Origin: a virus
Virus record (IMG/VR): IMGVR_UViG_3300032294_001427
Location: 1 to 64,000 of that record
Direction: 5' to 3' (one strand)
DNA: 64,000 nt
This document shows positions 24,867 to 64,000 of the stretch, piece by piece; position 1 is the stretch's first letter; each line of letters starts with the position of its first letter. The notes under the pieces were generated by a model. That model made no database searches. It had not been told where the DNA came from and saw only the letters and a list, made by a program, of their open reading frames with translations. A program made the position numbers and the translations under genes.

Positions 24867-25895
24867 TTAATTTGTAACGTATTCTGTGAAGTTTTCTGCC
24901 GATTTCTTCCAGTTTATATTTTTGACGCTTAAATACGTTGTGCCGCGATCAACGTTCAGAGCGAAACAGATCGCTGTTGATAAATCCTCATCGGTAAATC
25001 CATTCACACCGTTTTGTATTTGGTCAATTGGTCCTGTTACTGGGTAAGCGGCAACTGGTGTTCCACATGCCATCGCTTCGAGAATGACTATCCCATATGT
25101 GTCTACTCTGCTCGGGAAAACTAATACATCTGCAGATTGATAATATTGTGCAAGAGATTCACCAAATTTATATCCAACGAAACGAACATTTGGGTATTTT
25201 TTTTGCAACTTATTTTTGTATGGACCATCACCAACAACAATTTTGACAACTTCTGTTAATGGAAAAACGCAACCAGAAACATCTAGTTCGCAAAATAAGT
25301 CTATATTTTTTTCTTTGCTGACGCGACCAACGTATAACAGAACAACCTTGTTATCGTTATATCTATCATTGAATTGAAAATGAGAATCATATCCCTTACT
25401 TAAAACGACTGAGTTCCATTTTGGGTTTTCTTTAGCACTAGATTTTGAGGAGCACATCACATATTTTGCATTCTTATGAAACCAATCAAAATACCATTTT
25501 GTCCAAGAAACTGGAATTCCGTATATTTCTTTGAAGAATTCGGGGAATTTTGTATGGTATGCAGTCGTGTACTTAATTCCAAGTTTTTCAAGAACTCTTT
25601 TGGCTTGTAGACCAAGAATACCTTCCGTGGCAATATGGTATTTTGTATCATAACCCTGATTGTGCCAATAGATATCTTTAGTCTCAATCAAATCTAACAT
25701 TTTACTATAAGAACATAAAGATATAGGAACTTCTTTATAAAAAGGGAATTTTATTGAAGAAAATTGCCCAGGATGAATTACATCTATTGTGACGTTCGCT
25801 GGTAAATTTTTTATGATGTTCTTATATGTTGTCACCACCCCATTAACTTGTGGTTCCCATGCATCCGTAATTAAGATTATTTTTGTGCGTGCCAT
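24867..25895 (-). CDS. GT4 glycosyltransferase, Agt-like (glycolipid synthesis)
   Basis: 342 residues from MARTKIILITDAW, chosen because GGAG lies 8 nt upstream. The N-terminal ITDAWEPQVNGVVTT and the C-terminal donor site (SRVDTYGIVILEAMACGTP, E-x7-E pattern) are diagnostic of retaining GT4 enzymes; LLYVGRVSKEKNID and GPIDQI also fit. The closest family I recognise is the glycosyltransferase encoded next to plcP in proteobacteria, which puts glucose or glucuronate on diacylglycerol. Overlaps the plcP-like gene by 19 bp. Other GT4 roles, such as O-antigen modification, are not excluded. Confidence 0.78.
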   Translation of the reverse strand: MARTKIILITDAWEPQVNGVVTTYKNIIKNLPANVTIDVIHPGQFSSIKFPFYKEVPISLCSYSKMLDLIETKDIYWHNQGYDTKYHIATEGILGLQAKRVLEKLGIKYTTAYHTKFPEFFKEIYGIPVSWTKWYFDWFHKNAKYVMCSSKSSAKENPKWNSVVLSKGYDSHFQFNDRYNDNKVVLLYVGRVSKEKNIDLFCELDVSGCVFPLTEVVKIVVGDGPYKNKLQKKYPNVRFVGYKFGESLAQYYQSADVLVFPSRVDTYGIVILEAMACGTPVAAYPVTGPIDQIQNGVNGFTDEDLSTAICFALNVDRGTTYLSVKNINWKKSAENFTEYVTN

Positions 25896-26620
25896 CGTAA
25901 AATCTCCCATTCTCCATTTAAATGCTCCACTAATGCACTCATCGATTCTACCCAGTCTCCATCATTCATATAAATGATACCGTTAACATTTTTAATCTCA
26001 GCCCGATGAACGTGCCCACAAATGATTCCATCGGCTTTTTGTTTTTTACAATAATCTGTGATCAACTCTTCAAAATTATTGACGTATGATAGTGCTTCTT
26101 TGGTTTTATTTTTGAGATATTGACTCAAACTCCAGTGCGGCAAATTTAACCAACCACGGACTTTACTAACAACAGTATTAATTTTCAGAAGAATGTCATA
26201 CAAGACATCCCCTAAATGGTATAGCCACTGTAGTTTTGTTCTCAAAACACCATCAAATAAATCACCGTGTATTACAATATAAGTGTTACCATCTACGCCG
26301 ATATGGCGGCATTGATTGACCAATTTTATGTTTCCGAAATTTATGTCAAATGGTAGCAAATCACGAAATGCATCATCATGATTCCCAACAATATAAGTTA
26401 CTTTAGTGTCGTTTTTCGCAGCCTTCAGGATTTTACGAACCACATCAGTATGAGATTGTGGCCAATAGAACTTCTGTTTCAATCGCCATCCGTCAATAAT
26501 ATCGCCAACAAGGTACAAATTTTTGCAAGAATTATTTTTCAAAAAATCGCATAACAAATCCGCTTTACATCCCCTAGATCCAAGATGGATGTCAGAGATA
26601 AAGATCGATTTGTATTGCAT
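25877..26620 (-). CDS. PlcP-like metallophosphoesterase (LpxH-like fold)
   Basis: 247 residues with all calcineurin-type metal motifs: SDIHLG (about 9), GDIIDGW (39), GNHDD (78), HGDLFD (114), GHVHRAE (199). The signatures IFISDIHLGSRGC, DGWRLKQKFYWPQSH and DGDWVESMSALVEH are those of the LpxH-related PlcP group, which cleaves phosphatidyl lipids to diacylglycerol during phosphate limitation. It is far longer in similarity to this group than to true LpxH by memory, but no alignment was run. Followed by an Agt-like gene; together they could turn host phospholipid into glycolipid and release phosphate-containing headgroup. Confidence 0.75.
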   Translation of the reverse strand: MQYKSIFISDIHLGSRGCKADLLCDFLKNNSCKNLYLVGDIIDGWRLKQKFYWPQSHTDVVRKILKAAKNDTKVTYIVGNHDDAFRDLLPFDINFGNIKLVNQCRHIGVDGNTYIVIHGDLFDGVLRTKLQWLYHLGDVLYDILLKINTVVSKVRGWLNLPHWSLSQYLKNKTKEALSYVNNFEELITDYCKKQKADGIICGHVHRAEIKNVNGIIYMNDGDWVESMSALVEHLNGEWEILRWHAQK

Positions 26621-26643
26621 TATAGACTCCTAGGGATAGAATC

Positions 26644-26672
26644 ATTATATAGGATGCAAATTATTACCGTTG
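26644..26672 (-). promoter_or_regulatory. Candidate promoter of plcP-agt-like pair
   Basis: TATAAT (26644-26649) on the minus strand, 24 bp before the plcP-like ATG, preceded by CCTA. The -35 region is poor, and no upstream box is present. CTAGGAG forms a ribosome site. No Pho box recognised. Confidence 0.35.
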
Positions 26673-26861
26673 TATTAAAAGATGGGGATCGTCTGTTAGA
26701 TGCAGAAAAAAAGTCTTCAATCCATCTATCTGTTGGATGAATCCCCATGGCCCCGATCTTTTAGCAGCGTAGTATGAGTCCTGCTTACGAATCAAGACCC
26801 ATTCGTTTCCGTACAGTTGGAGAAACTGTAGACCGTGTTTTGTTTTTGGTTGTAGAATCAT
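26664..26861 (-). CDS. Small paralogue of the 19523 protein
   Basis: 65 residues: KTKHGLQFLQLYGNEWVLIRK, SGPWGFIQQ, FFLHLTDDPH. Shares its pattern with the 70-residue protein at 19523, indicating duplication. Function unknown. Confidence 0.6.
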   Translation of the reverse strand: MILQPKTKHGLQFLQLYGNEWVLIRKQDSYYAAKRSGPWGFIQQIDGLKTFFLHLTDDPHLLIQR

Positions 26862-28806: not shown

Positions 28807-30063
28807 TTACTTTATATAGAAATATTTCTCGATCTGTTTTATGCCATTTAGGTCTTTCATTTTTTCTATCACATCTTTATCGATCAGATCTGGGTGCACC
28901 CACCAATCCTCGAAGGTTGAAATTCCGTCTGGAGACACATCACTCACGACTAATTCATAACCCATTGCTCGCAGGTATTTGCGCGACTTCTCACGATAAC
29001 TTCGTGTGATATCAACATAATAGTCGTGCTCATATGTTATGACACCAAACTTAAATTGGTCGAACGGAATCTTCAATAGAATTTCAAATGTAACTTTGCT
29101 AGGTTCGCAATCTAATTGCAAGTAATCCACCACACCATTAGATGACAAATCCTTCAACAATTTCACATAATTAACCTGCGTAGCATCGGACATTAGAACT
29201 GGGTTTTTCCTATGCTTCTTATATTCATCGACCAATTCTTGCTTATATTCTATACCCAAACCAGTCCAACCATATTCAGTTTCCAGTAACGCAGTATTGT
29301 TACCGAAATACGGGCTTGCGCTACCTATCTCCAAATATGTACCATTTCTTTTTCCTTTCGTCATCGATAGAACAAATATGTCCTGAAAAACTTGAGAATA
29401 CGATCTTTTAATTTTATCAGAACCTTCAAATTTATATCTCAGTTGATCGTGTTTCGCTTGATCGTAATAACGAAATGCTTGGCTTTCTGGACCGCTCCCT
29501 AAATTAGTCAAATTTATTTGTAGTGCTTTATAGTGAGACTCATCCAATTGATCAACATAATCATCGGCTAAGGTGTGAAATAGTTTTCTAGATTCGGCGG
29601 ACTTACCCCACCACCAAGCACACACGGCTTTCTCGAAAATCAAACCATACTTTCCAACGTATTCGACATCGCCTCTCAAAGGTGGCAGTGTAAAGTCTGC
29701 AAATTGCAGCCCAACTTCGGCAGTCGTATATCCAGAAACATAACTTTGACTCTTTTCATGAGTTCTTGCTAGTAGAAAATATGCTTCTGGTCTATTTGGC
29801 AGTAACATCATGGCTTGATAGAAAGCGCCTCGAACCGAATTGGTTCTGTTTTTAGGTTTCTCAAAACAATGACCTATCATCAAAAGACACTCATATGCCA
29901 AATTTTTATCTGATGTTCTCTCTGCCGCTCTTAGAAAAAACGACAATGCTGCCGCAGTCTGATTAGCGCCATAGTATAACCTAGCCAAAGAATAATTAAG
30001 TTCTGGATTTTCTGTGTCCATCAAATAACTATTCAACGAATTCTGTATAGATTGTTCAATCAT
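28807..30063 (-). CDS. TPR protein fused to FkbM-like methyltransferase
   Basis: 418 residues. Residues 1-200 are TPR-like (ENPELNYSLARLYYGANQTAAALSF; AYECLLMIGHCFEK; LLPNRPEAYFLLARTHE; WWWGKSAESRKLF). Residues 225-370 match an FkbM-type methyltransferase: FVLSMTKGKRNGTYLEIGS with motif I LEIGSASP, GLGIEYKQE, DYLQLDCEPSK. A terminal EDWWVHP segment follows. The TPR half is a paralogue of that in the gene at 30493. Such fusions occur in T4-like cyanophages. Sugar or lipid-linked substrates are plausible, given neighbours. Confidence 0.75.
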   Translation of the reverse strand: MIEQSIQNSLNSYLMDTENPELNYSLARLYYGANQTAAALSFFLRAAERTSDKNLAYECLLMIGHCFEKPKNRTNSVRGAFYQAMMLLPNRPEAYFLLARTHEKSQSYVSGYTTAEVGLQFADFTLPPLRGDVEYVGKYGLIFEKAVCAWWWGKSAESRKLFHTLADDYVDQLDESHYKALQINLTNLGSGPESQAFRYYDQAKHDQLRYKFEGSDKIKRSYSQVFQDIFVLSMTKGKRNGTYLEIGSASPYFGNNTALLETEYGWTGLGIEYKQELVDEYKKHRKNPVLMSDATQVNYVKLLKDLSSNGVVDYLQLDCEPSKVTFEILLKIPFDQFKFGVITYEHDYYVDITRSYREKSRKYLRAMGYELVVSDVSPDGISTFEDWWVHPDLIDKDVIEKMKDLNGIKQIEKYFYIK

Positions 30064-30066
30064 AAA

Positions 30067-30477
30067 TTATTTCAACCATCCAATTTTTTTACCCAAAGCA
30101 ACTCGACGATCATATTCCTCATGCGACCCTGGATATCTCCAAGCCCAAACAAGCCAAAAGATCATAAAGACGCCAACCGAAATAAGCCCAGCCAATTTCA
30201 TGCCAATATATAGAAGCCATGAATAACTGGCTAAACAACAAACGAGCATTATATACTTTGCTCTAGTCGGATAAATTCTTTTTTGAGTCCAGTCTTGGAT
30301 ATAAGGTCCGAACACTGAGTGATTATATAGCCATGCGTGCAGTTCAGGTGAACCCTTGGCGAAGCACCATAAAGCCAACGCAACGAAAGTCGTCGTCGGA
30401 ATCCCTGGCACAATCGCCCCAATATACGCACACCCAACAAAAAATAAACCGAACGTTCTCCATATCCACTTGCGCAT
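30067..30477 (-). CDS. DUF454 (YbaN-like) inner-membrane protein
   Basis: 136 residues. FGLFFVGCAYIGAIVPGIPTT, FVALALWCFAKGSPELHAWL and FGPYIQDWTQKRIYPTRAK match the YbaN/DUF454 family of bacterial inner-membrane proteins; three hydrophobic spans. Role unknown even in bacteria. Its presence in a phage, between two TPR-fused enzymes, suggests a captured host envelope gene. Confidence 0.75.
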   Translation of the reverse strand: MRKWIWRTFGLFFVGCAYIGAIVPGIPTTTFVALALWCFAKGSPELHAWLYNHSVFGPYIQDWTQKRIYPTRAKYIMLVCCLASYSWLLYIGMKLAGLISVGVFMIFWLVWAWRYPGSHEEYDRRVALGKKIGWLK

Positions 30478-30492
30478 GGTATTCCTCCCGTT

Positions 30493-31689
30493 TTAATCAA
30501 AGAAAAACATTTGCCACAATCGACCATCTGTTCTGTCTTGTCCAAAATATTCGCTGGCAGAATGGATGCTACTGGCATCAAAAATGACCAATCGATTAAA
30601 CACATTACCCAAAACATCGACGGGCTGGAATGGTGTTCTATCTAGATGAGTCTTTTCATCTGTGGGCCAAACTTGTTTCCAATTAGGATCATGGTAATCT
30701 CTAACTCTAGTTTTTTTATGGGCATATAGAGTAGTCCCAGTTTCAAATGGTGCTTCTGGTGTCAGATAAATCATGCCAGCCCATTTCTGAAGATCGCAAT
30801 GATAGACTAATGCTTCTCCCGCCCAAGCAATTTGAAATCTGCCATTCATATCATATTCTTGCCATCGTGTGATTTTTCTACCCATGACATCTTCAAACTG
30901 CTCTTTCAGACCATCAAACAGAAACTGCTTAGAAGTTCTTCGGCCAATGTAACCGCGACCGAACCCACCTTCTATGTATTCCTGCTTCAGCGCGAACTCT
31001 CTTATGGCTATTGGATTTGCGTAGAAGTCATCGACAACCCAAACTCTATTTCGACTATTTGGATTAAAAGCAAAAGTATTATCGCTGTTTATCATCTTTG
31101 AAATCTTTCTATTGAAGGATAGTGGATCATACTTTTTATAGTATTCGCGGATAGTACTTTTTTCCGAGTCATTCAACTCGCTCCAATGGTTATCGACGAG
31201 GAAAGTTAAGTGGTTCTTACATTCCACGTGCTTTCCCCACCACCAAGAAGAAATCATCAACTCAAAAATAAATGATCTAGCGCCATTAAATGGAACATCA
31301 GTCTTGATGTAATTGAAATCAGATAGATTGTTTGCCTTTAAACCTAGTTCCGCATATATGTACGCATCGACATATTGATCATGTCTTCTGTTCAAATTGC
31401 TGATTAGATAATATGCTTCTTGTCTGTTTGGTAATAGACAGATTGCATGTTTATACGCGCCAGTGGCACTGAACTTTCTATTGCCCTGCTTATCGAAACA
31501 CAGCCCGATATAGAGTAGACACTCGTATGCCAACAACTTATCGGATGTTCTTTCGGCTGCTCGAAGATAATAAGATAGCGCGGCTGCAGTCTGCCCGATA
31601 GAATAGTAAAAAGACCCGAGTTCATAATTGAACTCGGGGTTTTCTGGATCATTCAAATATTGGTTGATTATGAAATCAAAATTATCCAT
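30493..31689 (-). CDS. TPR protein fused to DUF6445-like (2OG-oxygenase-like) domain
   Basis: 398 residues. The N-half repeats the TPR module of the 28807 gene (ENPEFNYELGSFYYSIGQTAAALSY; AYECLLYIGLCFDK; WWWGKHVECKN). From about 215: RVWVVDDFYANPIAIREFAL, GRGYIGRRTSKQFLF, YHCDLQKWAGMIYLTPEAP, RLVIFDASSIHSASEYFG. YHCD and IHSA supply the H-x-D...H metal triad of 2-oxoglutarate-type oxygenases. Substrate unknown. Same TPR head with different catalytic tail implies module swapping. Confidence 0.75.
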   Translation of the reverse strand: MDNFDFIINQYLNDPENPEFNYELGSFYYSIGQTAAALSYYLRAAERTSDKLLAYECLLYIGLCFDKQGNRKFSATGAYKHAICLLPNRQEAYYLISNLNRRHDQYVDAYIYAELGLKANNLSDFNYIKTDVPFNGARSFIFELMISSWWWGKHVECKNHLTFLVDNHWSELNDSEKSTIREYYKKYDPLSFNRKISKMINSDNTFAFNPNSRNRVWVVDDFYANPIAIREFALKQEYIEGGFGRGYIGRRTSKQFLFDGLKEQFEDVMGRKITRWQEYDMNGRFQIAWAGEALVYHCDLQKWAGMIYLTPEAPFETGTTLYAHKKTRVRDYHDPNWKQVWPTDEKTHLDRTPFQPVDVLGNVFNRLVIFDASSIHSASEYFGQDRTDGRLWQMFFFD

Positions 31690-62986: not shown

Positions 62987-63787
62987 TCATTTACGCACCT
63001 TCAAAATTGCATTCTGTAGTGCATCACGAACTGGCGACATGTACTTGTGGGCTGGAATGGTGCAAGTCGAGCGTCCAGCGACGGCTACTTTGGCGAATTC
63101 CTTCTCCGTATACCATTCTGGGGTAATAGCCAACATATCGGCTAACTCATGCATATCAATCGAACCCGAATTTACAAGATTCACGGGTCCGCTGGCACCC
63201 TCTTCAATTAAATCTACAGCAACCTTTACGGCTTCATCTAGGTCGGTCAACGAATTCTGACCAAAATCTACCAATTTACCCGTTCTGGCATAATTCATTA
63301 CCTTGGATAGATAATTTTTGGGTTCATCGACACCCGTAAATGGCATACGAATTCTGAATACCAAGGAGCGGGGTTTATTTTTTAGGTAAAGATCTGAAAC
63401 CCCCTTTGAAACGGAATAGATGCTACCAAAGTAATTTGGGTCAGCGTTTACGTCATCGATTTCGCCTTGGTAAATGCAGCCACTTGAAAAATGTACGAAT
63501 TGTATTCTGTGTGATTCGTATGCCTTTGGGTTTGTGCACGCTTGGTACAATTTGACGGGGAATGCGACATTTGCTTCTATAGTCTCGACCTTATATGACT
63601 CACATGCATCAACGTTTGGTGAGCCTGTTATGCCCGCACAATTGATAACGCATTCGTATGAAGAATTCTCGATTTCTCTTATCGCACTTTGGTGCGAACA
63701 CGATGTGGTCACTATATAGTCCCTTGAAATTAATTCATTGACCATCTTCTTTCCAACCCAACCTCGACCAACGACCAAAATTTTCAT
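62987..63787 (-). CDS. RmlD-like NAD-dependent sugar-nucleotide reductase/epimerase
   Basis: 266 residues from MKILVVGRGWVGKKM (ATG after AGGTTTTGATT; a TTG two codons earlier is possible). N-terminal Rossmann GxGxVG; CVINCAGITGSPNVDA; VHFSSGCIYQG; SIYSVSKGVSD (the YxxxK catalytic pair). Fits the dTDP-4-dehydrorhamnose reductase group or a related SDR. Overlaps the end of the RmlA-like gene context. Confidence 0.65.
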   Translation of the reverse strand: MKILVVGRGWVGKKMVNELISRDYIVTTSCSHQSAIREIENSSYECVINCAGITGSPNVDACESYKVETIEANVAFPVKLYQACTNPKAYESHRIQFVHFSSGCIYQGEIDDVNADPNYFGSIYSVSKGVSDLYLKNKPRSLVFRIRMPFTGVDEPKNYLSKVMNYARTGKLVDFGQNSLTDLDEAVKVAVDLIEEGASGPVNLVNSGSIDMHELADMLAITPEWYTEKEFAKVAVAGRSTCTIPAHKYMSPVRDALQNAILKVRK

Positions 63788-63789
63788 AA

Positions 63790-64000
63790 TCAAAACCTCT
63801 TGCTGATGATTCTAGCCAAATACTTACCATAGTCCGACTTACTATACTGTTCAGCCGCACGGCGAACATCATTCTCCGTGATCCATGCGTTCTTATATGC
63901 GATTTCTTCTGGGCATGCGATCATCATACCCGTTCGACGCTGAACCGATCCTACAAACACAGAAGCCTCTGAGAGCGATTCAAACGTCCCAGTATCAATC
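63790..64000 (-). CDS. RmlA-like nucleotidyltransferase, C-terminal part
   Basis: 69 codons plus stop, open at the window edge. IDTGTFESLSEASVFVG, MMIACPEEIAYKNAWI and SKSDYGKYLARI match the C-terminal domain of glucose-1-phosphate thymidylyltransferase, which makes dTDP-glucose. Together with the RmlD-like gene it suggests a dTDP-sugar for phage glycosylation. Confidence 0.68.
   Translation of the reverse strand, partial: IDTGTFESLSEASVFVGSVQRRTGMMIACPEEIAYKNAWITENDVRRAAEQYSKSDYGKYLARIISKRF

Follow-up and report, generated by a model that had tools for sequence, protein, structure and literature searches.

The question raised by this locus is whether two overlapping genes of a virus would let a phage convert the phospholipids of its host into glycolipids, and what the phage would gain by it. 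The membrane phospholipids of a small aquatic cell hold a large store of phosphorus, an element in which phages are rich; among the known phage phosphate genes, pstS imports phosphate and the roles of phoH are unclear. In bacteria under phosphate stress, PlcP makes diacylglycerol from phospholipid and Agt glycosylates the diacylglycerol (PMC8528852, PMC4796936, PMC9239053). A preliminary description of this DNA had proposed that the two viral genes carry PlcP-type and Agt-type signatures, and we followed this up by comparing both proteins and their surroundings with those of bacteria and other viruses.

The gene pair and its setting

The window, by which we mean the whole 64,000-nucleotide stretch analysed, comes from a 64,053-bp virus record that carries RNR, ThyX, primase, RNA ligase, endolysin, tail-fibre and virion structural genes together with 18 tRNAs. 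The named phages nearest to its structural genes are remote, and its thyX, RNR and primase genes lie 6–10 kb upstream of the pair. Both reading frames of the preliminary description were found where it had put them, on the minus strand and overlapping by 34 bp as listed (Table 1). Since a GGGAG ribosome site is better placed for ATG 25895, we take this codon as the likely agt start, which leaves a 19-bp overlap. The agt start codon falls within plcP and agt lies downstream on the same strand, which is the order of a type 2 plcP-agt operon, and the overlap suggests translational coupling. In Pfam the esterase matched Metallophos (PF00149; 3.5e-12) and the transferase matched Glycos_transf_1 (PF00534; 2.3e-24) and Glyco_transf_4 (6.1e-07). 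Purifying selection on both genes was strong in a comparison with relatives about 75% identical in DNA (pN 0.09–0.16, with pS of 0.68–0.85 near saturation), and Ka/Ks was 0.03–0.08 for both genes where computable.

Table 1. Features of the gene pair and of the region upstream of it (residues of the agt-like protein follow the 347-aa numbering)
Feature	Position	Strand	Detail
plcP-like gene	25877..26620	-	247 aa; metallophosphoesterase; from the ORF list
plcP-like metal ligands			D10, H12, D40, N80, H118, H203, H205; PlcP-type GNHD motif (LpxH: GNRD)
agt-like GT4 gene	24867..25910	-	347 aa as listed; 342 aa from the likely true start, ATG 25895
agt-like residues			catalytic pair H119 + D270; acceptor-site K172 + W334; GRVSKEKN, FPSRVDTYG
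Overlap of plcP end and likely agt start	25877..25895	-	19 bp; 34 bp if ATG 25910 is used
agt ribosome-binding site GGGAG	25904..25908	-	8 nt before ATG 25895, inside plcP
plcP ribosome-binding site AGGAG	26627..26631	-	6 nt upstream of the plcP ATG
Stem-loop GATTCT-ATCCCTA-GGAGTC	26625..26643	-	contains the plcP ribosome site; predicted function
-10-like element TATATAAT	26644..26651	-	conserved in most close relatives
Pho-box-like repeat TTTTAAT-ACAA-CGGTAAT	26663..26680	-	11/14 to CTGTMAY x2; about 3% of shuffles match

Two other features of the neighbourhood were seen. A gene for a DUF454 (YbaN-like) inner-membrane protein (30067-30477, minus strand; 2.5e-31) is unusual for a phage, and two proteins of 418 and 398 aa encoded at 28807-31689 (minus strand) have similar TPR-type N-termini and different C-termini, one with matches to DUF6445 and to a family of minor coat proteins.

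Assignment of the metallophosphoesterase

Judged by its tree position and conserved residues, the upstream gene is a PlcP-type metallophosphoesterase, and its product would be predicted to hydrolyse phospholipids. The reading to be weighed against this makes the esterase an LpxH-like enzyme of lipid A and gives the GT4 a substrate in LPS or some other surface glycan. Such proteins bear the database name UDP-2,3-diacylglucosamine diphosphatase, LpxH is the nearest solved structure (found only by profile search, the esterase sequence on its own having given no match in the PDB), and nearby genes of the window include sugar-type enzymes, such as an epimerase (62987-63793). The nearest named models were also those of LpxH; however, the window esterase scored far below their cut-offs (46 bits vs 134 and 34 bits vs 190), and the proven P. 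aeruginosa PlcP was equally low on the same models (55 and 44 bits).

We placed the protein in a tree of 104 rows that held true LpxH from 14 PlcP-carrying bacterial genomes and E. coli LpxH, with PlcP from P. aeruginosa and related Pelagibacteraceae, and without the characterised MED193 and HTCC7211 PlcP, as references. LpxH split off from the PlcP side with a support of 100. The window esterase belonged to a clade of 42 rows (support 97), made up of 41 viral rows and one short contig binned as Hyphomonas, and beside this clade lay bacterial PlcP, including P. aeruginosa PA3219 and an S. meliloti protein. The tree was made by a quick method in which the long branches L002, L139, L140 and L234 are insecurely placed; the window is not one of these. 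The contig binned as Hyphomonas (L149, 3.7 kb), with its PlcP inside the viral clade, is probably a phage contig.

All metal ligands were kept in the window protein, as were residues invariant among bacterial PlcP that LpxH does not share. H81 of the GNHD motif was retained, a position at which 7 of 7 LpxH have R, and among the columns with 95% or higher conservation in bacterial PlcP the only departures of the protein were D for G at 71 and V for I at 204. Its structure model (pLDDT 79.5, weak at 127-171) had a predicted fold that matched only the LpxH-like superfamily and nothing finer. The protein thus stands with PlcP and outside the LpxH clade, and the PlcP-type signatures first noticed in the sequence were borne out by the support-100 split and by the PlcP-only residues. 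On the tree, the GNHD motif and the sub-cut-off model scores we rejected the LpxH/lipid A reading, and we regard it, together with its surface-glycan role for the GT4, as very improbable.

Assignment of the glycosyltransferase

Two characterized enzymes served for comparison: SAR11 GTcp, for which the residues whose mutation abolishes activity have been defined (PMC8231724), and P. aeruginosa Agt1, which is enzymatically proven and takes only UDP-glucose as donor (PMC8528852). With GTcp numbering carried to the window via a 334-aa Pelagibacteraceae relative (L157), all of the mutation-essential residues were present except R163 (K) and F258 (Y), and the validated Agt1 likewise has K and Y at these positions. 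The acceptor residues His104, Arg163 and Trp320 of GTcp correspond to H119, K172 and W334, the His-Asp dyad is found as H119 and D270, and the motifs GRVAxEKN and FPSxTDTFG read GRVSKEKN and FPSRVDTYG (T to V; F to Y as in Agt1). The residue check suggested for the pair therefore found metal, catalytic and acceptor residues all kept.

In the transferase tree, in which deep branches are weak and outgroup GT4 few, the window protein fell in a clade of 42 rows (support 95; 40 viral and two SAR11 Agt sequences), with WaaG, WaaB, MgtA-like GT4 and archaeal GT4 outside it. At the catalytic position it shares Asp with Agt, whereas WaaG, WaaB and an Acinetobacter MgtA-like protein have Glu. This tree and the catalytic Asp led us to reject the LPS GT4 reading represented by the WaaG, WaaB and MgtA-like outgroups. 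The concern that the transferase might group with O-antigen GTs was not realized, as it fell with Agt and apart from the LPS GT4s tried (WaaG and WaaB), and the Agt-type signatures claimed earlier agreed with its place in the SAR11 Agt clade and with its kept catalytic and lipid-binding residues. The structure model (pLDDT 92) had a predicted GT-B fold. The downstream gene is, on this comparison, an Agt-type GT4 whose product would be expected to synthesize glycosyl-diacylglycerol, and because Agt1 uses UDP-glucose only, our best guess for its donor by analogy is UDP-glucose.

Five close relatives (L016, L018, L019, L024 and L027) have a UDP-glucuronate decarboxylase (UDP-xylose synthase) gene between ruvC and plcP, hinting at a different sugar donor in these phages. 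The nearest solved structure to this neighbouring enzyme was human UXS1 (2.5e-102). The window has no such gene at that place.

The pair in other viruses

A scan of IMG/VR viral contigs with the esterase found at least 408 relatives of PlcP, of which we retained 80, and a scan with the transferase found 73 relatives. Adjacent plcP and GT genes were seen in about 100 loci on uncultured virus fragments from both queries, the closest relatives of the pair being 78–84% identical and in the same 30-bp register. As loci had been drawn with both queries, we counted the esterase-recruited loci separately as the unbiased part. A GT gene lay just downstream of plcP in 50 of the 53 such loci with enough sequence; by hand count, 36 had an Agt-type GT4, 14 a GT2 and 3 neither. 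The loci with GT2 in place of Agt after plcP are L032, L033, L052, L056, L059, L060, L064, L066, L067, L069, L070, L081, L082 and L084.

Seven esterase records (L045, L050, L074, L094, L109, L142 and L144) also encode a T4-type portal and terminase and are therefore phages; six of them have the pair, and the locus of L045 is cut off. No plcP-agt pair was found among isolate phages in the collection searched. The isolate Pelagibacter phage Mosig has an esterase 51% identical to that of the window. In L029 and L031 the esterases are near that of the window and the transferases belong to another viral clade, from which it seems that the second gene has been swapped between phages with the pairing kept. 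In L139, L140, L142 and L147 an Agt-type GT4 adjoins an esterase that shares only about 28% identity with that of the window, possibly an independent pairing.

These records also bear on the view that the pair is a chance transfer, or misassembled bacterial DNA, with no role in infection. Both genes have close bacterial homologues and L149 was binned as Hyphomonas, as this view would expect; the large virus-specific clades for both genes, the strong purifying selection, the records that also bear portal and terminase and a PlcP in the isolate phage Mosig all speak against it, and we find it scarcely credible. Bacterial contamination was rejected on the portal and terminase of the pair-bearing records. 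The plcP-agt-type cassette is a wide and selected occurrence in phages, and no local oddity.

The region upstream of plcP

The region between the Pho-box-like repeat and plcP has a layout shared by L005-L025, with TATATAAT just before the stem that holds the ribosome site. This stem-loop is kept with compensating changes in the close relatives L022, L024 and L025. A transcript begun at a promoter formed by TATATAAT would lose the 5' arm of the stem. T4 genes that are translated only from late transcripts have a similar arrangement of stem and promoter. A scan of the region for sigma-70-like promoters and terminators gave about the chance level.

Of 75 viral loci, 27 (e.g., L029, L036, L073 and L139) have TAAATA upstream of plcP and no more than 30 nt from its start; shuffles gave an expectation of 2.5, and 29 of 353-370 other genes had the motif. 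It often stood only 4–6 nt before the plcP ATG, and may represent a late-type phage element, a -10 element or, in part, a stop codon.

Links to phosphate

PstS-type genes were present in 8 of the 30 records tested. In related phages pstS lies directly upstream of plcP-agt (L041/L050, L058 and L068) or near it (L030, L031, L094 and L109), a phosphate ABC transporter gene adjoins plcP in phage Mosig, and PhoH-family genes scored above the cut-off in 12 records. Neither pstS nor phoH was found within the window's 64 kb. In some phages the pair stands among nucleotide genes: with gene names read from sequence similarity, the order in L034 is primase, plcP, agt, thyX, nrdA, nrdB, whereas L097 has nrdA/trx on one side of the pair and nrdB on the other.

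Upstream of viral plcP we noticed heptamer pairs with an 11-bp period. Matches of at least 12/14 to CTGTMAY-N4-CTGTMAY occurred at 14 of 78 viral plcP and, within these loci, at 3 of 353 other genes (P = 6e-9, for a consensus partly set after viewing the sequences). The strict E. coli consensus CTGTCAT, which was not so set, gave 13 of 78 against 7 of 353 at a threshold of 10 (P = 2e-6). The upstream sequences tested are related, so both P-values are too small. The enrichment was found at a 4-bp spacer only, spacers of 2, 3, 5 and 6 giving no significant enrichment, and the sites were most frequent at plcP genes with an intergenic region of their own. Among the stronger sites are those of L064 and L073. 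Pho boxes predicted by computation in phages are known to be unreliable (PMC10976474). The repeat of the window lies 11 nt before TATATAAT, and its clade keeps the position more than the letters; it is well positioned but alone unconvincing, and at most weakly suggests a candidate site. A search of the whole window for the standard Pho box with up to 3 mismatches was at chance level (6 found vs 7.3 expected). The phosphate link is strengthened by the pstS neighbours and Pho-box-like sites of related phages, and judging from these the cassette appears to be tied to the host phosphate-starvation response in many such phages.

The main rival to a role in phosphate supply is that the pair alters envelope charge or the membrane, for superinfection exclusion, defence escape or lysis control, with phosphate release a by-product. 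Lipid renovation does alter the surface and membrane proteins of P. aeruginosa (PMC9804370), and altered aminolipids are reported to change phage attachment in Ruegeria (PMC9938194). The GT2 second enzyme in 14 loci and the UDP-xylose synthase neighbours also suggest that the sugar added may matter. The pstS linkage and the Pho-box-like sites point instead to phosphate, the neighbours of the pair are often primase, thyX and nrdAB and not genes for surface glycans, and superinfection exclusion found no specific support in this analysis. We consider an envelope role with phosphate as a by-product unlikely; an envelope role is nonetheless compatible with phosphate supply, and both may hold.

Relation to known systems

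The closest known system is the bacterial plcP-agt operon in its type 2 context, as in Ca. Pelagibacter HTCC7211, P. aeruginosa PA3219-PA3218 and Methylosinus trichosporium OB3b. The phage pair shares with it the order of plcP then agt (PMC4796936), the protein families and the active-site residues; about 60 of 80 bacterial loci had this gene order, and identity of the window proteins to bacterial members was 44–58% for PlcP and 34–40% for Agt. Unlike most bacterial loci, in which the two genes are tens of bp apart, the phage genes overlap by 19–34 bp, form their own virus clade and, in several phages, stand among genes for replication and nucleotides.

The pair resembles the phage phosphate auxiliary genes pstS and phoH in that it is, in several phages, linked to pstS and preceded by Pho-box-like sites, for which cyanophage pstS under host PhoBR control is a precedent (PMC10976474). 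It differs in that the phosphate would come from host membrane lipid and not from uptake from outside. LpxH has the superfamily and fold of the esterase and is the name given to these genes by automated annotation, but it forms another clade, has GNRD for GNHD and is not what is paired here with Agt. Virome surveys list lpxH as a viral auxiliary gene (PMC10653327, PMC9611531), and our suspicion is that this gene is partly PlcP under its database name. In Pelagibacter phage Mosig EXVC030M the 51% identical esterase, Mosig_00120, is annotated as UDP-2,3-diacylglucosamine hydrolase; like several of our pairs it has a phosphate transport gene beside it, but it has neither Agt nor GT2 there, and the genome report does not discuss it.

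In the open-licence literature we found no report of a phage-borne plcP-agt, of which there may be earlier mention elsewhere, and no text on PlcP together with auxiliary metabolic genes; papers joining PlcP, phage and lipid remodeling concern other subjects, going by their titles and abstracts. The families and the operon are already known; what appears new is a version in phages that has clades of its own and a link to phosphate.

Proposed role

We think it probable that the phage carries a complete two-step lipid remodelling pathway that supplies it with phosphate. PlcP would convert host phospholipids to diacylglycerol and a phosphorylated head group, and Agt would transfer a sugar, most likely glucose from UDP-glucose, onto the diacylglycerol to give a phosphate-free glycolipid, leaving the membrane intact and preventing a toxic build-up of diacylglycerol. 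During infection, phosphate from one of the largest phosphorus pools of the cell would thereby be freed for phage nucleotide and DNA synthesis, although a further phosphatase would be needed for free phosphate since PlcP yields a phosphorylated head group. We favor phosphate supply for phage DNA because of the pstS linkage, the Pho-box-like sites and the placement among nucleotide genes; the enzyme activities of the window proteins, their preference for UDP-glucose and the benefit to the phage are inferred.

Beyond the window, the evidence leaves us evenly balanced on whether there is a widespread and previously unrecognised class of phages that mines phospholipid phosphate through a selected plcP-GT cassette (Agt or GT2), partly wired to the PhoB system of the host and joined to pstS, and in whose window clade the UDP-xylose synthase of some members may give a non-host glycolipid. 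The results suggest that the 'lpxH' auxiliary genes of viromes deserve re-examination. If the proposed pathway is true, the conversion of phospholipid to glycolipid would be a new route of phosphorus supply for phages, and infected cells, like the material they release on lysis, would change in lipid and element content.
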